Source: Arcticibacter svalbardensis MN12-7
Lineage (GTDB): Bacteria; Bacteroidota; Bacteroidia; Sphingobacteriales; Sphingobacteriaceae
Assembly (NCBI RefSeq): GCF_000403135.1
Contig: NZ_AQPN01000023.1
Span: forward strand, 1-63,949
Length of the DNA: 63,949 bases
Reading direction: 5' to 3'
Shown here: positions 6,935 to 36,085 of the stretch, piece by piece
Numbering within the stretch: position 1 is the first letter of the stretch
How the letters are laid out: the number at the start of each line of letters is the position of its first letter
Notes under the pieces: generated by a model
What the model was told of the DNA's origin: nothing
Seen by the model: the letters and a program-made list of their open reading frames with translations, nothing else
The model's database searches: none
Translations under genes and position numbers: made by a program

Positions 6935-7313
6935 ATCGTTAAATAGGTTAACACTAACCGGGCCCAATATACCTGAAGATTCCAATCCAACCCTTGCGTC
7001 AGGATCATACAAAGCAGATGTTTTTCTTTGATCTGCTGGTAAAAGAGCATCACCTAATAAGCTTTTAAAATCTGCGAATTAATCGGGGTATAGGTTGTTT
7101 TTAGAAGTGATTTGTCCTTTTGTCCCGGTTACTGTGAAACAAAATTAAATCAGATATAGGGAGAACTTTTGTTATGGCCTCATGGTTATTAGCATCGGTT
7201 AACACATCTATACAACCTTGGAGGAAGATAGATCTGGTAAGATAGTAATAAATGAAATCATCTGGACAATTCCATCTTTCATACCATCTTGTTGGATACT
7301 GATATATTCTCAT
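6929..7313 (-). pseudogene. degenerate minus-strand coding remnant
   Basis: Two minus-strand stretches have protein-like composition but do not make a gene. One open stretch of 51 codons (7081 down to 6929) has no start codon and contains GDALLPADQRK, SALYDPDARVG and LGPVSVNLF. The other, 70 codons at 7313-7101, begins MRIYQYPTRWYERW. They are in different frames with stops between. The most economical reading is a decayed gene read leftward toward the terminator at 6881-6934. I cannot name the family, and chance open reading in AT-rich DNA is not excluded. Confidence 0.3.
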
Positions 7314-7408
7314 AACCTAACTTCTGTTTCCATTATTCTAACAAAATGATTAGTAAATTGATATGCAATTGCTTGTTAGTATAATAATTTGTTATTATCA
7401 TTATTTAA

Positions 7409-7597
7409 GAAGGAAATTATGCACTAACAGCATTTATACATGAAAATTTGTTAGTAGACACTAATTTATCTGGTCTTGTAAGTACAACTACGACTGCTAA
7501 TAATGCACATGTTGTAGATGTTAATGATAATTTGAGAAAAATTGATACGCTCACTAAAGGACAAAGAATATTTCATGATAAAACTAACTCGGTCTGA
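7409..7597 (+). pseudogene. possible C-terminal fragment of a secreted protein
   Basis: This frame is open for 62 codons, has no ATG, and reads like a protein end: YALTAFIHENLLVDT, then AHVVDVNDNLRKIDTL, then a stop. The first segment resembles the beta-strand plus partner text seen in Omp28-like Bacteroidota lipoproteins, but this is weak. It overlaps the start of the next gene by 23 bp. It could be a truncated gene left by a deletion, or a chance open frame. Confidence 0.25.
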
Positions 7598-8069: not shown

Positions 8070-8652
8070 AGCGATAATTGATTCTTACTATATAAAGCCT
8101 GAGTATTTATCTGCGTATAGAATATTATACGGTCTTATTGTGATTGTTTTTGTGGGGCTTCCTTCCTATTCATGGTAAGGAAATAGTATCGATTATTTAT
8201 TTAATCCACCAACCATTAGTCTTTCCAATTTATTTAATGGTTTTCCTGGAAGAATTTTTTTTAATGTACTTACCTTTTTGAACTTGGTTTTTTTTATAGG
8301 TATGTTTTTGGGGATTCAGTGCAAGTGGTCTTCTCTTTTTTTCTCTTTGACCTGTATAATTGGTTCTAATTATTGGTATTCTTTTGGGAAAATAGACCAT
8401 TTACTATTATGGATAATTGCACCCATGTTTTTAGGGTTTGCCGGCTGGGGAAACTATTTTAATGTGTATACGCTGTTAGGAAACAAGGAGTTGAATGAAC
8501 AAAAACCCATTTCTACTGAAACTATATCTTTAATCATTAGTCTTTTTGCGCTTTCAATTGCTTTTTCAATGCTTACTTCGGGAATAGCAAAAGTAATGGG
8601 TGGATGGCTAAGCTGGAGTCATGAGACAACCTCCATCAATTGTATTAAATAA
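8059..8652 (+). pseudogene. HTTM / vitamin K-dependent gamma-carboxylase-like membrane protein, broken by in-frame TAA
   Basis: The frame starts at ATG 8059 (MKIKAIIDSYYIKPEYLSAY), reads 39 codons, meets TAA at 8176-8178 inside ..PSYSW-stop-GNSIDYLFN.., then continues in the same frame through several transmembrane segments to 8652. The layout fits the HTTM family: an N-terminal amphipathic entry, repeated hydrophobic helices, and SGIAKVMGGWLSW near the end. At about 197 codons it also looks shorter than typical HTTM proteins (about 300), so the 3' end may be lost too. The break is one substitution, TAA for a sense codon. It overlaps the anchored protein upstream. Confidence 0.7.
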
Positions 8653-8801
8653 GCAATGATTCTTCACGAATATAAACGAATTCCAACCTATTTGTTAGTT
8701 TTACAGCTTAGTGCGAAAATCTGAAAGAGTGCTCAAAATAGGGCCTTCAATATCTCTCACCAGAATTAAACACAGAAATAAATAATTAAACATAGAAACG
8801 A

Positions 8802-9212
8802 ATGAATCATTGGCTCGTCAAGTCTGAACCTCATAAATATAGCTGGGATAAATTTAATGAAGATGGCAGCACCTTTTGGGATGGTGTGCGTAATTATCAG
8901 GCAAGAAATAACCTGAGAGCCATGGAAAAAGGCGATTTGGTTCTTTTTTACCACAGCAATGAAGGGAAGGAAGTTGTTGGGATAGCCAAGGTGGTTAAAG
9001 AGTTTTATCAGGATCCTACTACTGAAGATCCGAATTGGGTGGTAGTCGATCTGGCGCCTTTAGAAAAGCTTAAAAGGGCAGTCACATTGGAAGAGATCAA
9101 AAAAGATTCGCGTTTGGAGAATATTGGTTTGGTTAAACAAGGGCGCTTATCGGTAATGCAATTAAAGGCTGAGGAATTTGACCGTATCGTTGAATTAGGA
9201 AACGGGGATTAA
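8802..9212 (+). CDS. EVE-domain (PUA-like) protein
   Basis: A 136-residue single-domain protein of the EVE family (PUA-like fold, related to thymocyte nuclear protein THYN1). Visible family marks are MNHWLVKSEPHKYSWDKF at the N-terminus, WDGVRNYQARNNLRAMEKGDLVLFYHS, VGIAKVVKEFYQDPT and the LVKQGRLSVMQL strand near the end. EVE domains bind modified bases, and many prokaryotic copies act in modified-DNA restriction or RNA-related processes. As a stand-alone copy beside DinB-like and thioesterase genes, its role here is not shown. Length is normal for the family. Confidence 0.92.
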   Translation: MNHWLVKSEPHKYSWDKFNEDGSTFWDGVRNYQARNNLRAMEKGDLVLFYHSNEGKEVVGIAKVVKEFYQDPTTEDPNWVVVDLAPLEKLKRAVTLEEIKKDSRLENIGLVKQGRLSVMQLKAEEFDRIVELGNGD

Positions 9213-29761: not shown

Positions 29762-30079
29762 GATTTAATTTTTATGTTAAAATATTTTGTTATTTAGATA
29801 AGAATTAAGGCATTACAAATATAAATCAAAGACAAGGGGGTGTTTGAGGGATCAGATCAACCTATAATATGATACCAGTCATTTATTAGGTAAAACAATT
29901 TAGCAAGTGGTTGGTTATAGGAGACAGAACTTTTTATACCTCTTTAAGGTGGGGAAATATAAACTTAGGTTAGTTTCGCTTCCTTGATAAAGGAACAGAT
30001 ACGGTCGGAACTTTGCAAGAATTTAAGGGCTGGCTTTTCCATGAAAGCATTGCATTTGATCCTGATCAATAGCTTTTTC
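29762..30079. other. intergenic region with a -7 element for the DUF3494 gene
   Basis: A 318-bp spacer between two minus-strand genes. On the minus strand TATATTTG at 29823-29816 matches TAnnTTTG, about 54 nt before the DUF3494 start, without a clear -33 partner. No strong terminator for the Abi gene is visible. No gene is supported. Confidence 0.4.
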
Positions 30080-31024
30080 TTAAACTATCTGATCTCTATT
30101 GAATTTCCAAATTATTTCAGTCTGCCAAGAACCACTAAATCCCATTGCCGAAAGATCAACAACAGAATATCTGTCTAAAAGGTTAAATAGCCGTTGTTTG
30201 AATTTATTATTAGGACTAACCGTGTTTAAAAGATATATAATCATTGATAAAACGAAATAGGTTTTATTATTGATAGGCTTTGTGGTCCCGTTAATTTCTA
30301 TGTCGACAACTGAAAGCCATGAATTTGTAGGGGTAATAGGTAAAGAAGGTGTAATTCTCATCGACCTGTTCCATAATCTTGAATGATGAGCACAAACATT
30401 ACGTACATAAACTATGGTATGTAACCATGATTCAAATGTGGAATCATCCAATCCAAAGTATTTAGAAATTTCTCTTTTCTTTCTATTGGGTTTTAAGTTT
30501 TTGTATAAACTAGATAAGGTTCCAAATGAAGATATTTCAAGTATCATCCAACTTGGCGGCAAAGGATCATTGTAGTTTTCTTTAAACGATTTAATGAATT
30601 GTTCATCACTTCTTTCAAAATCCTTTTTTAGCTTTATTATTGTTTGGTTTAAACTTACACTGTTTTTGAAAATACCTGTATTATTTAGCCAGTTAGGACC
30701 ATACTCATGTGATAACAAATAGATCATTTTAGCCCTGATAGCCACTTCTATCTTTTCAAGTTCCGCCCCCACCAATTTTCTTAATTCTCTATCAAAACAG
30801 TATAATTGGAAAGCCAAATCAAACGATGCATCTTTTTTAAAAAGGTGAGTTGATTTTGGGGCCTGAATCATAGGATACCAGTAACCACTGAGCCTATAGT
30901 AACTAATATTCTCTAAAAGAAATAACGCTTTAGAATCATCTTCTATTTTCAGACCTCTGTCTTTTAATTGTTGAAGTTGAACTTGGTAAGAAAGTGCAGG
31001 TTTATGATAAGGTATTCTGGACAT
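30080..31024 (-). CDS. Abi_2 / AbiF-AbiD family abortive-infection protein (HEPN)
   Basis: A 314-residue Abi_2-family protein, a group named after lactococcal AbiD/AbiF phage-exclusion proteins. The N-terminus (PALSYQVQLQQLKDRGL, then LLENISYYRLSGYWYPM) and DRELRKLVGAELEKIEVAIRAKM are typical. The HEPN active-site motif R-x4-H is RNVCAH, Arg208 to His213, followed by HSRLWNR. HEPN proteins are usually RNases that act as toxins when released from control. A hairpin RNA with a U-run ends 3-4 nt before the ATG, so expression or activity is probably controlled by that RNA. No other defence gene is adjacent on this side. Confidence 0.9.
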   Translation of the reverse strand: MSRIPYHKPALSYQVQLQQLKDRGLKIEDDSKALFLLENISYYRLSGYWYPMIQAPKSTHLFKKDASFDLAFQLYCFDRELRKLVGAELEKIEVAIRAKMIYLLSHEYGPNWLNNTGIFKNSVSLNQTIIKLKKDFERSDEQFIKSFKENYNDPLPPSWMILEISSFGTLSSLYKNLKPNRKKREISKYFGLDDSTFESWLHTIVYVRNVCAHHSRLWNRSMRITPSLPITPTNSWLSVVDIEINGTTKPINNKTYFVLSMIIYLLNTVSPNNKFKQRLFNLLDRYSVVDLSAMGFSGSWQTEIIWKFNRDQIV

Positions 31025-31027
31025 GTC

Positions 31028-31082
31028 AAAAAAAAAGCTTACCCTGAGCGCGCTGATCTAAAGGGAAGCGGGGTAAGCATGT
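31028..31082 (-). ncRNA. hairpin RNA upstream of abi gene (abiF-RNA-like)
   Basis: On the minus strand GCTTACCC (31078-31071) pairs with GGGTAAGC (31044-31037). Between them CGCT (31070-31067) can pair with AGCG (31054-31051) around a loop containing CCCTTTAG. Nine T follow at once, then GAC and the Abi ATG. A TACATTTG promoter motif ends 5-7 nt before the stem. The layout is a short autonomous RNA of about 50-55 nt ending in an intrinsic-terminator form, in front of an AbiF-type gene. This is the position of the abiF RNA motif known from comparative genomics (Weinberg and colleagues). Direct identity with that motif is not checked. Confidence 0.72.
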
Positions 31083-31087
31083 TAATA

Positions 31088-31095
31088 CAAATGTA
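31088..31095 (-). promoter_or_regulatory. putative -7 element TACATTTG for the abi leader RNA
   Basis: Exact TAnnTTTG match on the minus strand. The expected start point lies just before the hairpin RNA, so the RNA would begin at its 5' stem. No clear -33 TTTG is visible upstream in this very AT-rich stretch. Confidence 0.5.
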
Positions 31096-31273
31096 AATAA
31101 AATATTAATCATATATTTATGTTATTTTAACATATTAATCTCAATTTTAATTTATTCTCTTTCACTTTAGATAGAATTTATTAGAAAAAATAGAGTAGAC
31201 ACCGGTATGCTGATTAGTATTTCAAACTAGGGTTGCATTGTGAAAGTTGATACATATATTCAAAACTCTAGGG

Positions 31274-32239
31274 CTAACTTTTTTTAAATGAAACCCTTCC
31301 TTTCTTAATCAGATCCGTGACAAATACCTTTTCTTTAACCTTTTTACTGGTTGCAATGGCCCGTTTACTAACCTTATTATCCATGCCCAACATGAGGAGG
31401 TTACCTTTATAAAACATCTCTATTATTTTCTCTTCTCTGCCTGGATAGTTGGATGGTTGCATATCAACCTCTTTTAAAGGGTAATTCGAAGGATTTAAGG
31501 ATTGAAATGTGCCGATAATAGCGCAGGGACTAAAATCCTTACTATTCAACAATATACTTTCATCAGTTTGACTGATTGTAGAATATAACATTAGTGACAT
31601 ACTCACCAATGCCAGGCAATCCTCCGGGATTTTTTCATTAAAAGTGATTATTTGTTCTTCAGTGGTTTGATATCCTTCCAGATCGACATCCTGAAACCCC
31701 AGGTTTTCATAATACTCCTCCCTGAAGTTAAAGGCAACCAACATCAAACGGATCCTGTGTTTCATATAGGCTCCACTCAGCCCTTTAGGCCTTTTAATCC
31801 CTGTTTTAGTGTCCAAAGATCCTAAAGTAATATGCACCAAACCTTCAAGATTTTTACTAACAGAGTGGCTCATCTGCAGGACCTCAGCTAATTTACTGTT
31901 CGCATTGAAGTCCAATCCCTGTAAATAGGAAAGGTCCCCATCATGCAAATCTCTTTTCCCTTTATCTCCACTTACATTGTTCAAGATTGACCGGTACACC
32001 AATTGCGTGCTTCTGTAGGCTGCTGTCCCGTCCTTAAAAAAATAAGCCGGTTCAAATGCATTCCTGATCACTGCTGCCGAAGAACTCGAAAGTCCAAACT
32101 CCGTAGCGCTCCTGATCGTTTTTTCAGTTTGCTTAAATTCCTTTGTCTTACCCTGAATGATGTTCTTTCCCCGATACTCCCGGTAAATTACAGAACCTGC
32201 AGTTCCATGGATCATTCCTTTCTTATCTATTGTTGCCAT
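31274..32239 (-). CDS. conserved hypothetical protein (Sphingobacteriales family)
   Basis: A 321-residue soluble protein without signal peptide or membrane segments. The N-terminus (IDKKGMIHGTAGSVIYREYRGKNIIQGKTKEFKQTEKTIRSATEFGLSSSSAAVIRNAF) resembles a recurrent Bacteroidota family in which a G-x-x-Y-R-x-Y-R-G start is followed by a repeated Thr/Ala-rich helix; related DUF6266-type proteins share this general plan. Function unknown. It lies upstream of the Abi unit in the same direction, 190 bp from the RNA promoter, and has a basic C-terminus (SKKVKEKVFVTDLIKKGRVSFKKS). A link to the Abi unit is only positional. Confidence 0.75.
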   Translation of the reverse strand: MATIDKKGMIHGTAGSVIYREYRGKNIIQGKTKEFKQTEKTIRSATEFGLSSSSAAVIRNAFEPAYFFKDGTAAYRSTQLVYRSILNNVSGDKGKRDLHDGDLSYLQGLDFNANSKLAEVLQMSHSVSKNLEGLVHITLGSLDTKTGIKRPKGLSGAYMKHRIRLMLVAFNFREEYYENLGFQDVDLEGYQTTEEQIITFNEKIPEDCLALVSMSLMLYSTISQTDESILLNSKDFSPCAIIGTFQSLNPSNYPLKEVDMQPSNYPGREEKIIEMFYKGNLLMLGMDNKVSKRAIATSKKVKEKVFVTDLIKKGRVSFKKS

Positions 32240-32347
32240 ACTTTTATGTTATTTGCATAAAGTAATCGCTAAAGATTCTTAAGAGCGAAAAAAACTTTAA
32301 AATTTCTTAAATCTTCTCGAAAAAGGCATGAATTGTCAATAAAAGAC

Positions 32348-32497
32348 ATGACGATCATTGAACAAATTAAATTAAAAAAGATGCGTGCTTCATTTTATCC
32401 TATTATCAATCTGATTTTCAAAAGAAAAGGCCACGGACATGCTGTAAAAAAATTCTTGACTTCTTCTAAAAGGAAAGCTATTGAATCAATAAATTAA
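32348..32497 (+). CDS. small basic ORF, 49 residues
   Basis: ATG 32348 opens a 49-codon frame MTIIEQIKLKKMRASFYPI.. with many Lys and Arg (about pI 11 by eye) and a GHGHAVKKF segment, ending at TAA 32495-32497. No clear ribosome site is seen, as is common in this phylum. A hairpin with a T-rich tail (32517-32556) follows 20 bp later, which supports a separate transcript. I recognise no family. It could be chance; the codon pattern is not strongly biased. Confidence 0.35.
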   Translation: MTIIEQIKLKKMRASFYPIINLIFKRKGHGHAVKKFLTSSKRKAIESIN

Positions 32498-32516
32498 CGA
32501 ATAACCATGCAGTATA

Positions 32517-32556
32517 AGTCCGACTTAAACTAGCCAAAGTGGGACTCATTTTGGAC
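32517..32556 (+). terminator. possible terminator after the small ORF
   Basis: AGTCC-g-ACTT pairs with AAGT-g-GGACT, with a 10-nt loop and one internal G-G mismatch, followed by a T-rich run ending in seven T. Confidence 0.45.
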
Positions 32557-32713
32557 TTTTTTTGGAATCTTATCGGGATGAAATATTGAAAGCTACCATC
32601 AATCCTGTAAAGCATTTTAAATTTTATTAATCAAGCGGAATGCAGGTAAACCAGAATGGTTTGGATGAAACTATGATCTTATGATGATTCTGCCAAAATA
32701 CGCTGATCTCATA

Positions 32714-33604
32714 CTACTTTTTATGGAATGTAAAGGCTATAGGCGTTAATGTATATCCCTTGTTTTTGAGTGAATTAACTAAACCGTCTTTACCGCCAAG
32801 ATGCCCAGCTCCAACAGCAATCATAAGGCTTTGAGTTCCGATAAGAGCATCGATCCGATTAGCCATAATTTCATTGCGTTTAGTAACAAGTTCGCCATTA
32901 AAGCTGTCATCTAGAGGCATCATCTTGCTAAGATCTTCTATCATATGGTGGATGTCTTGTCTGACATACACGCGCATCACTTCATTCAGCATCTCATTTT
33001 GCGACATGTTTTGTTTCAGCATTGTAGATAGCATTTTTGCCTGCTCAATAATAGATATCGCATCAACTGCTTTAAGTTGTTCATTAAGTGTTTCTATTCC
33101 ACCGATACTATCTTTTAAGAGTAAGGCTTTCTTATATAATTCCATATCCAAAGAAGGGGTATGTGTGCCAGCCATTAAAAAAGTGGAAACGTAGATTGGT
33201 TTAAGCTGGAAAAGTTTGTTTCCAAGTGCCTTTAAAACCGATGAGGTTGCCACAGCCTGTGATAGTTTAGTTAGGGACGCGGTATCTAATATTTTATTTA
33301 AATATTGGGTGCTGTCTTTTATCCAAAGGGCTTGCATCAATTCGGCCTGATTAAGATGTCCAAAATCTAGTTCAAAATAGACGTTTCTAACAGTTTTTAA
33401 CCGATCGAAAATAGCTTCTGGTAATTCGTATTGTAAGGTATCAAACAAATGTATCGTTCCAACAAGGTAAACAGGTTGATTAATATGCTTTCCTGAAATT
33501 TGCCATAGTACACTTTTATCAGATTGTGCAAATGCAAATGAGAGATTAAGTAGCAGCCCAATTAATAATAAGAGCCTTTTTAAGTTAAACAAATGAGGGT
33601 TCAT
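32714..33604 (-). CDS. TraB/GumN family protein
   Basis: A 296-residue exported protein with signal peptide (LLLLIGLLLNLSFAFAQ). The TraB/GumN domain fills the rest: LWQISGKHINQPVYLVGTIHLFD (the GT-x-H pair), NVYFELDF with an acidic residue, and AVGAGHLGGKDGLVNSLKNKGY near the C-terminus. The conserved GT..H, E and GxxH residues resemble a metalloprotease-like site (Tiki/TraB relatives), but bacterial members are mostly uncharacterised. No operon partner is visible. Confidence 0.92.
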   Translation of the reverse strand: MNPHLFNLKRLLLLIGLLLNLSFAFAQSDKSVLWQISGKHINQPVYLVGTIHLFDTLQYELPEAIFDRLKTVRNVYFELDFGHLNQAELMQALWIKDSTQYLNKILDTASLTKLSQAVATSSVLKALGNKLFQLKPIYVSTFLMAGTHTPSLDMELYKKALLLKDSIGGIETLNEQLKAVDAISIIEQAKMLSTMLKQNMSQNEMLNEVMRVYVRQDIHHMIEDLSKMMPLDDSFNGELVTKRNEIMANRIDALIGTQSLMIAVGAGHLGGKDGLVNSLKNKGYTLTPIAFTFHKK

Positions 33605-33926
33605 ATTTACTAGATAAGTTAGTATACTAAGATGAAGGAAACTTACAGTTATTTTTTAATATTCAATTTAAAAAAAAATAACTATGAAAGTAGCCGCCTA
33701 CATGATCACAACTTAGAAAATAATAAAGCCATGTCATAACGAAGATTCGCTCTCAAATTAAAACCAATTAATAGTTTAAAAACTTAAATATAACAGCTCC
33801 TTTTTCTATTAGTAATTTATAAAGGTCTTATTATTTCCCCCGTTTTATAGGCTACAACTTTGACTGTTTTGGCTAATCTTGGAGTTAAAAGATTAATGAC
33901 CTTTGTGTTATAAAGAAACACGTACA
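33605..33926. other. intergenic region between divergent genes
   Basis: A 322-bp AT-rich spacer between the TraB/GumN gene (minus) and the SDR-AraC chimera (plus). I see no gene, strong hairpin or exact TAnnTTTG element within usual distance of either start. A near match, GACCTTTG, lies about 20 nt before the chimera's ATG. Confidence 0.4.
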
Positions 33927-34787
33927 ATGGAAAACAACACAAATCGAATTAAAGGAAAAGTAATTGCAATCACAGGTGCAAGCAGTGGGATTGGTGAGGC
34001 AACAGCAATGATGCTGGCAGAGCTTGGAGCAAAAGTTGTTTTAGGCGCAAGAAGATTGGATCGTTTAGAAGAGCTTGATGGTCGAATTAGAGCAGTAGGA
34101 GGTGATTCCACTTATCTGGTAACAGCTGTTAAAAATCGTGTGGATGTAGATAATTTGGTTAAACTGGCTTGTCAGCAGTATGGCCGGTTAGATGTAATTA
34201 TCAATAATGCAGGAATTAGCCATCTTTCCCGAATAGATGAGTTGCAGGTTGAAGAGTGGGAAGAGATGATTGACGTAAACTTAAAAGGTGTTTTATATGG
34301 AATTGCAGCTGGATTGTCCGTTTTTAATGAATTGGACAATAACATTGATTCTTTTAGTCAGGATGTTTTGGTTTCCCAGATAGAACTGATATTAATTCAT
34401 AGTAACCGCTTTTATACACGACAGTTTAATACCCGTAAGACGGTTTATATTGATTTGATAGATACAATGAATGCTTATTTGGACGAGCGTTTCGATCCGG
34501 AAAGGTCAGTTGTATTCGGCCTGCCAACTGTTCAGGAAGTATCGGATCATCTTCATATTTCAGCTAGGTATCTAACAGATTTACTTAAGTCGCTAACAGG
34601 CCAGAGTACCCAGCAACATATTCATAATAAGTTAATTGAAAAAGCGAAGGATAGATTGAGTACGAGTCGTCTCACTATTGCTGAGATCGCGTATCAGCTA
34701 GGTTTTGAACATCCGCAATCATTTAATAAGCTTTTCAAGCGATATACTGAAATATCTCCAACAGCCTATCGTCAATCATTTAACTGA
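33927..34787 (+). CDS. chimeric SDR oxidoreductase N-half fused to AraC-type regulator C-half
   Basis: A 286-residue frame from ATG 33927 (a TTG at 33903 is unlikely). Residues 1-130 are a short-chain dehydrogenase start: GKVIAITGASSGIGEATAMMLAELGAKVVLGAR (cofactor Gly motif), NNAGISHL and DVNLKGVLYGIAAGL. Then the text changes to an AraC regulator: SVFNELDNNIDSF.., LVSQIELILIHSNRFYTRQFNTRK, and two helix-turn-helices (TVQEVSDHLHISARYLTDLL; LTIAEIAYQLGFEHPQSFNKLFKRY). The catalytic Tyr-x3-Lys of the SDR is gone. Adjacent SDR and AraC genes are common in Bacteroidota, so an in-frame deletion near 34308-34326 joined them. DNA binding may persist. Confidence 0.85.
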   Translation: MENNTNRIKGKVIAITGASSGIGEATAMMLAELGAKVVLGARRLDRLEELDGRIRAVGGDSTYLVTAVKNRVDVDNLVKLACQQYGRLDVIINNAGISHLSRIDELQVEEWEEMIDVNLKGVLYGIAAGLSVFNELDNNIDSFSQDVLVSQIELILIHSNRFYTRQFNTRKTVYIDLIDTMNAYLDERFDPERSVVFGLPTVQEVSDHLHISARYLTDLLKSLTGQSTQQHIHNKLIEKAKDRLSTSRLTIAEIAYQLGFEHPQSFNKLFKRYTEISPTAYRQSFN

Positions 34788-34924: not shown

Positions 34925-36085
34925 ATGCCTGATAATGAAGAGAAAATAAGACAATTAGAGGAAGAGATTAATCTTTTGAAATCGGGTAAACCTACTTCAA
35001 AGGAAATACGCAAGAAGGATTCCCTGGATCTGGAAAACAAAAATAGTCACCTTCGTTTTAAAACGATTTTTGAGCAGACGTCTCTTGGCAATAAGTTCAT
35101 TAATTCTGACTTGCAAATAATTAAAGTAAATAAAGCTTTAGTAAGATTGTTAGGGTACAGTGCAAAAGAGTTAATTGGAACTAGGATCACTGACATTGTG
35201 CTTCCAGAATTTGTTGAAAACTGGAAGAAATTACAGCATGAACTTTGGTCAAACAAAAATCCCTCATTTAGTATAGACACTTGTATTTATAAGAAAGATA
35301 GAAACATCGTATGGTGCCATATTACATCTATCTTGCTGACAGATCGAGGCGAGACGCTTGGGTATACTATTCTTGAAGATGTTACGGAACGAAAAGTCCT
35401 GGAGAATGATCTAAAAGAGGCAGCTAGCCGGGAATCGTTATTTCAGCAGCAGTTATTAGAAGCTACTATAGATACACAGGAGAAAGAACGGTCGCGTATT
35501 GCCGAAGATTTGCATAATGGGTTAGGTCAGATATTATATGGTATTAAGCTGAGCCTTGATCAGGTAAAATTTGAAAATGCAAAACAACAAATGGAAGGTG
35601 TATTAGCTATTAAAAAAGCTAAAGAATTAATTTCCGTATGTATCAAGGACACGAAGCGCATATCCCATGATCTTATGCCAACGATACTTGAAGATTTTGG
35701 ACTTAAAGAAGCGGTTCAAGATATTTGCCAGCAGATTAATGGAACAATAACTATGAATTGTCGATTTTCAGGATTAGAGGATAGACTTCCAAAACATGTT
35801 GAAATAGCTATTTATCGTATTATACAGGAACTAACTACAAATATAATTAAACATGCTAATGCTACCAAAGCTTCTTTGCGAGTAGGTGTTAGCAGGAGAG
35901 AGATCAGAATTCGGGTAGAAGATAATGGCAATGGCTTTAATGTTTCAAAATCTAACGAGGGAAGCATCGGTATTAGATCAATAAAAAGTAAGCTTTATCT
36001 TTTAAAAGGTAAATTAGAAATTTCCTCTAAACCTGATACAGGAACTGTGATAGATATTCAACTTCCACGTATGGTTCAAAATTGA
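34925..36085 (+). CDS. PAS sensor histidine kinase, HisKA_3 (NarL-type) family
   Basis: A 386-residue cytosolic kinase. A short N-terminal coiled coil (1-30) precedes one PAS domain (about 42-160). The HisKA_3 dimerisation helix has EKERSRIAEDLHNGLGQ with phospho-acceptor His197. The HATPase domain has ELTTNIIKHANATKA and VEDNGNGF. Such kinases usually pair with LuxR/NarL-type response regulators; none lies in the window, so it is an orphan. No membrane segment is seen, so the signal is intracellular. A Fur-family gene starts 41 bp downstream in the same direction. Confidence 0.9.
   Translation: MPDNEEKIRQLEEEINLLKSGKPTSKEIRKKDSLDLENKNSHLRFKTIFEQTSLGNKFINSDLQIIKVNKALVRLLGYSAKELIGTRITDIVLPEFVENWKKLQHELWSNKNPSFSIDTCIYKKDRNIVWCHITSILLTDRGETLGYTILEDVTERKVLENDLKEAASRESLFQQQLLEATIDTQEKERSRIAEDLHNGLGQILYGIKLSLDQVKFENAKQQMEGVLAIKKAKELISVCIKDTKRISHDLMPTILEDFGLKEAVQDICQQINGTITMNCRFSGLEDRLPKHVEIAIYRIIQELTTNIIKHANATKASLRVGVSRREIRIRVEDNGNGFNVSKSNEGSIGIRSIKSKLYLLKGKLEISSKPDTGTVIDIQLPRMVQN

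Follow-up and report, generated by a model that had tools for sequence, protein, structure and literature searches.

A single deletion fused two genes of one operon

The fused gene of Arcticibacter svalbardensis MN12-7 is a real fusion, the product of an 839-bp deletion that joined the gene of a short-chain dehydrogenase (SDR) to the adjacent gene of an AraC-family regulator. It lies in a 63,949-nucleotide stretch of DNA, contig NZ_AQPN01000023.1, which is called the window here. The locus provides a clean example of gene fusion by one deletion inside an operon.

Translation of the open reading frame (ORF) and its Pfam domains confirmed that both parts are read in one open frame (Table 1), as proposed in an earlier sequence-only reading of this DNA. 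The first ~133 residues are those of an SDR and the last ~152 those of an AraC-family regulator. The adh_short profile matched residues 11-131 with 103 bits (profile positions 1-121 of 195), HTH_18 matched with 75 bits against a cut-off of 33.6, and HTH_AraC also matched the C-terminal region with 69 bits. Among the NCBIfam rows listed, there were solely broad SDR and AraC models, scoring below their cut-offs. The sequence-only reading had let the SDR run to about residue 130 and the AraC part start at about 140; the AraC part was found to begin at residue 134/135. An alternative TTG start is possible at 33903, but it lies inside the promoter-like box. In the plasmid database, the best 20 of 53 matching records cover 10-14% of the query, and SDR or HTH-regulator genes are annotated in 19 of these 20.

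Table 1. Positions of the fused gene, its parts and its upstream elements in the window.
Feature	Position	Strand	Description
Likely AraC-type operator, GGCTAC-AACTTTGACTGTTTT-GGCTA	33850..33875	+	Direct repeat, half-sites 21 bp apart
Promoter-like -7 box GACCTTTG, Bacteroidota type	33898..33905	+	Identical in A. eurypsychrophilus
Fused SDR-AraC ORF	33927..34787	+	ATG start, 286 aa plus stop, no internal stop
SDR-derived part	33927..34327	+	Residues 1-133/134; over 33829-34327, DNA 89.2% identical to that of A. eurypsychrophilus
Codon 67	34125..34127	+	Ala; Asp in 20/20 compared SDRs
Deletion breakpoint interval, TTTTTAA	34321..34327	+	Overlap of two BLAST matches; A. eurypsychrophilus (L045) parents TTTTTAA (SDR) and TTTTCAA (AraC)
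AraC-derived part	34328..34784	+	Residues 134/135-286, with the remainder of linker helix 1, the long linker helix 2 and the HTH; DNA 88.0% identical to that of A. eurypsychrophilus
AraC-type helix-turn-helix (HTH) domain	34542..34775	+	Residues 206-283, HTH_18

Breakpoint of the deletion

In the sister species A. eurypsychrophilus MJ9-5 (NZ_MDFN01000007.1), the SDR (249 aa) and the AraC regulator (305 aa) are both whole and adjacent on the same strand, and the AraC gene begins 32 bp past the SDR stop codon. DNA BLAST of the window against this species gave five blocks of 81.6-89.2% identity that are collinear through the locus. Positions 33829-34327 of the window matched positions 7026-7524 of the sister locus (L045), and 34321-34785 matched 8357-8821. 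Between these two matches the offset shifts by 839 bp. They share 7 bases, which fall inside the region 34290-34340 where the junction had been placed from the sequence alone. The DNA shared at the breakpoint, TTTT(T/C)AA, amounts to 4 exact bases, or to 7 with one mismatch. A loss of 839 bp is not divisible by 3, but the reading frame remained open because the parent genes are in different frames; the chance of this was 1 in 3.

No copy of the deleted stretch was detected at another place in the assembly: a 1061-bp query matched with just its two ends, both at this locus. Relocation of the stretch was rejected on this ground. A long repeat as the driver of the deletion was also rejected, since none of the 20 listed of the 22 repeat families of the sister species joins the two breakpoints. 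Because separate adjacent pairs are present in many other genomes, the event was a deletion in the lineage of the window and not an insertion in that of its sister. The origin by deletion that the sequence-only reading had claimed is strongly supported by the 839-bp offset, the absence of the stretch elsewhere and the intact parents in the sister species. The deletion may have arisen recently in the lineage of the window by microhomology-mediated recombination, either slipped-strand or end-joining. It had also been suggested that the junction used a similarity of SDR LPVF to AraC LSVF. LPVF is indeed frequent in SDRs of other genera, but in this genus the SDR itself carries LSVF; near the breakpoint, the SDR of A. 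eurypsychrophilus reads GLSVFKTQ and its AraC regulator KSIFNEL.

Distribution of the fusion

With the whole protein as the query, a match spanning both parts was found in its own genome only among the matches listed for 60 relatives. For a junction-spanning protein fragment, its own genome was likewise the only one with a spanning match in 6 genomes of the same genus (one per species), among the matches listed for 399 genomes of the family, and in 395 genomes of the phylum; the four samples overlap. In the searches of 399 and 395 genomes, no more than 9 candidates were scored in each genome, with E limited to 1e-18 and 1e-22, respectively, which would miss fusions of unrelated or less related SDR and AraC genes. 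A spanning match should outrank matches of single halves, and none did in the matches listed for the 60 and the 399 genomes. Among 2657 stop-to-stop ORFs of at least 80 aa in the loci compared, both parents were matched by the window's own ORF alone (four overlapping loci).

The same fusion across many genera, which the sequence-only reading had named as a case against its proposal, was looked for and not seen among the matches listed. A conserved SDR-AraC fusion family was rejected, as no other spanning match was found in the genomes and loci searched. A full-text literature search, judged from its listing, made no SDR-AraC fusion of such kind evident. The words AraC, short-chain, deletion, fusion and pseudogene do not occur in the main text of a comparative paper on two Arcticibacter strains (PMC5435697), and a survey of AraC/XylS proteins counts 106 companion domains, with 'dehydrogenase' absent from its main text (PMC5882156).

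The parental cassette

Comparison with relatives that have separate SDR and AraC genes, proposed earlier as a check of the fusion, showed both genes intact and adjoining in A. eurypsychrophilus, and the same arrangement in numerous further Bacteroidota. A scan that covered genomes of 84,980 species gave at least 573 relatives, and the best 80 loci were analysed. In 57 of these 80 loci, the gene immediately before the regulator is an SDR on the same strand, and in 36 of the 57 it is a close SDR (>45% identity). The SDR-AraC pair is a common cassette in Bacteroidota. The window has the promoter type, the operator-like repeat and the gene order in common with the cassettes of A. eurypsychrophilus (L045/L064) and of Pedobacter, Mucilaginibacter, Dyadobacter and Chitinophaga, whereas it differs from them in missing 839 bp and in having one gene rather than two.

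The nearest solved structure to the parent SDR by sequence is 3tfo (E 2e-53). The parent regulator matched PF02311 with 24.0 bits (cut-off 21.1) as well as HTH_18, and its model matched chains of Rns, ToxT and AraC with low whole-chain TM-scores. In Dyadobacter sp. MSC1_007 (L114:3684-4514), the cassette SDR is split into two ORFs of the same frame by a single stop, which is another sign that the SDR of the cassette can be lost.

A repeat with a fixed spacing upstream of the cassettes

The pattern GGCTACA-N14-GGCTA matched 28 of 35 cassette promoters, a part of all cassette promoters, compared with 0.34 expected from Markov-random promoters, and this expectation is flattering because the motif was written after the same 35 promoters had been inspected. 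Better evidence is the single spacing of the half-sites, which is 21 bp, or two helical turns, in all 28 matching promoters although five gap lengths were allowed. The half-sites of AraC's own araI are spaced alike. In the same 35 promoters, AATTTTG was present in 15 and ACCTTTG in 7 (words counted at any position). The box GACCTTTG of the window is similar to the -7 box of Bacteroidota, which has the consensus TAnnTTTG.

The seven promoters without the motif are those of L082, L074, L096, L095, L071, L047 and L050. An operator matrix found degenerate sites in L082, L074, L096 and L095, and a site in L071 that is 215 bp upstream of the wrongly set gene start used in the motif count; no site was seen in L047 and L050. 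Over all 57 SDR-led loci together with the window, the strict motif was present in 31 of 58 promoters. The count that gave 28 of 35 also had 2 matches among 19 'control' promoters; these are promoters of related regulators and cannot serve as independent controls.

The matrix was built without the locus under test, with the relatives of that locus kept in. With this matrix, the best match in a locus (mostly ~10 kb) preceded the first gene by less than 250 bp in 58 of 80 loci. These comprise 32 of the 36 loci with a close SDR, 13 of the 21 whose SDR is distant and 13 of the 23 with no SDR. The best match of the window in its whole length was the repeat given in Table 1. There were 10 misses among the loci with no SDR, and in 9 of these the best match precedes the regulator by 1.1-1.9 kb, where a different gene may come first. 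GGCTACA-N14-GGCTA was observed upstream of SDR/AraC genes in loci within L064-L143, including some without a close SDR first. Since the repeat is also found before regulators without a close SDR, it probably belongs to the regulator. The sequence evidence suggests that the regulator probably binds the GGCTACA repeat and that the cassette is probably autoregulated.

In the whole genome, the exact operator pattern had 7 matches and a control pattern also 7, with no signal beyond the locus itself, and a regulon of the exact pattern was rejected at this chance level. The other six copies sit in stop-free stretches of 224-631 codons in some frame. The literature on AraC operators was searched thinly, from listings, and we do not claim that the repeat is undescribed. 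As a direct repeat of 21-bp spacing before Bacteroidota SDR-AraC cassettes, it is a concrete candidate operator for a group of regulators. Of all the results, this repeat of the parental cassette most deserves further work and is perhaps more useful than the fusion itself, which is of modest interest.

What the two halves keep and lose

Like classical SDRs (PF00106), the first ~133 residues have the glycine-rich TGASSGIG (residues 16-23, in agreement with the cofactor motif TGxxxGxG), the NNAG motif and alternating strands and helices. Unlike them, the chimera is without the second half that bears Tyr-x3-Lys, and it has Ala at an invariant Asp. The sister SDR carries the catalytic residues as YAGTK (Y159/K163), which is beyond the breakpoint; the translation and the sister alignment therefore agree with the earlier statement that the catalytic Tyr-Lys and the C-terminal half were lost. 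With both gone, the chimera would have no dehydrogenase activity. The Asp after β3 of SDRs lines the adenine pocket, and in the chimera this conserved residue is Ala67. When 20 SDRs were compared, Ala67 was the sole change of the chimera among 44 invariant columns, while the sister had 0 among 43. This one change (Asp67Ala) is suggestive of lost constraint on the SDR.

The AraC half showed no change at 52 invariant columns, and N164T at one column common to 18 of 19 outgroups. Its C-terminal HTH of the AraC type is present; the sensor domain PF02311 was not listed for the chimera at E ≤ 0.001, and an N-terminal ligand-binding domain was not found. The intact regulator was modelled with a mean pLDDT of 83 (25 rows). 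Its cupin strands end at ~106, two linker helices span 138-156 and 161-207, and the HTH starts from 221; the breakpoint cuts through the first of these helices. With its cupin domain lost, the chimera cannot sense the ligand of the regulator, and because the first linker helix is cut, it probably dimerises poorly. In AraC and ExsA, the helices in the linker position make the dimer, according to a passage in PMC4552939. With AraC/XylS regulators that have a cupin sensor, the chimera shares the HTH, the long linker helix and direct repeats with a 21-bp spacing that resemble an operator, but it has lost the cupin domain and the beginning of the first linker helix.

The AlphaFold model of the chimera had a mean pLDDT of 68 (11 rows). 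Residues 96-167, which join the halves, were below 50, while block means were 73-93 for residues 11-90, 74-89 for residues 171-260 and 59-69 for the last ~26 residues; all these values are rough because the alignment used for modelling contained 10 fragments, 5 of SDRs and 5 of AraC proteins. A fold search with the chimera listed SDR-type enzymes in its best 50 rows.

Age and selection

The dN/dS against the sister species was 0.127 for the SDR half and 0.145 for the AraC half, compared with 0.027-0.185 for six neighbours, one of which was compared over 265 codons only. The SDR half is above four of the six neighbours and the AraC half above five; the HTH part alone gave 0.118. Derived amino-acid changes in the SDR half were 3 on the chimera branch and 4 on the sister branch, with 6 assigned to neither, and those in the AraC half were 4 and 6, with 8 assigned to neither. 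For these counts, the 19 outgroup pairs were taken from the highest-ranked loci of the list, with L069, L071 and L077 skipped and all below L095 omitted. Triplet tests with four single outgroups gave chimera-sister counts of 4-4, 4-4, 4-4 and 4-1 for the SDR half and 6-7, 4-6, 4-3 and 6-4 for the AraC half, and no consistent excess on the chimera branch was found in them. Obvious decay as a pseudogene was rejected, given the open frame, the low dN/dS and the lack of a branch excess. Judged from these rates, either the deletion would be recent or the chimera would be under constraint, and the lack of visible decay fits both equally. The sequence-only reading had allowed for a dead chimera. This is possible, although a clear acceleration of change was seen in neither half.

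Possible roles of the chimera

We propose that the chimera is a recent deletion allele of a probably autoregulated SDR-AraC cassette, most likely with loss of function of both genes. The window has retained the promoter region, the operator-like repeat, the promoter-like box and the HTH. The remaining product would be an HTH attached to an only partly folded Rossmann remnant. At most, it could bind weakly and in an uncontrolled way to the GGCTACA repeats of its own promoter; such residual, unregulated binding to its own operator appears possible from what is retained. The double loss would be tolerated because the cassette is dispensable. Against a loss of function stand the open frame, the intact invariant columns of the AraC half and the low dN/dS, which are expected of a useful chimera too. 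Since the parental state is present in the sister species, claims of a working chimera are directly testable.

One such claim, which we regard as unlikely, is an active regulator free of a sensor. Expressed from the kept promoter, its HTH would bind GGCTACA constitutively and lock the locus on or off. The retained HTH and operator-like repeat and the low dN/dS of the HTH part are in line with it, and single-domain AraC proteins such as MarA exist, as mentioned in the same passage (PMC4552939). Like MarA and SoxS, the chimera would work, if at all, sensor-free; unlike them, it bears an SDR stub of ~130 residues, and its truncation arose by deletion in one genome and is not shared by a family. 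The first of the helices that make the dimer in AraC and ExsA is, however, cut mid-way, and no useful target beyond its own promoter is known, because exact copies of the operator pattern elsewhere are at chance level.

An assembly artefact, or a mutation of the sequenced culture in a species that has both genes when living, is very unlikely. Misassembly or a culture mutation is still conceivable because the fusion rests on a single genome, the genome set having one genome per species, and this is probably a 454 draft. The assembly to which the window belongs has 4,687,695 bp in 149 contigs, with the junction 34 kb from the contig start, and the published MN12-7 genome was described as 4.69 Mb in 151 contigs from Roche 454 data at 23x (PMC3709154). 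The breakpoint repeat of 4-7 bp is, however, too short to collapse an assembly; there is neither an orphan copy of the deleted stretch nor, among the repeat families listed, one that links the breakpoints. A run of five T is a place where 454 sequencing may err, but the run at the breakpoint fits the SDR parent exactly, and therefore no homopolymer error is needed for the frame.

DNA binding under NAD(P) control, which the sequence-only reading had considered, found no support: a half Rossmann fold that senses the cofactor and signals through the fused helix to the HTH agrees with the kept TGASSGIG and NNAG and the well-modelled residues 11-90, but it is hardly credible with the Asp invariant in 20 of 20 SDRs lost, the second half of the nucleotide fold missing, the joining residues 96-167 unreliable in the model and the fusion seen in one genome only. 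The α-E helix of SDRs helps them to pair. It is just as improbable that the chimera is a newborn transcription factor, in which the SDR stub would replace the lost AraC dimer helix so that the protein pairs via its SDR part; it would then bind the GGCTACA operator of its own gene, perhaps with modulation by NAD(P).

The surrounding region

Upstream of the locus, ~4 kb of the window (29823-33828) are unmatched in A. eurypsychrophilus, which has just ~0.8 kb between the corresponding aligned blocks. This stretch has three ORFs, all on the minus strand (30080-31024, 31274-32239 and 32714-33604), and the first of them presumably encodes a protein resembling the Abi family. Downstream of the cassette, a gene that by eye is PAS/histidine-kinase-like is present at 34925-36085 of the window and 9143-10224 of L045. 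It is one ORF of 386 codons in the window and two overlapping ORFs of 265 and 108 codons in A. eurypsychrophilus, which suggests that the gene is frameshifted in the latter.
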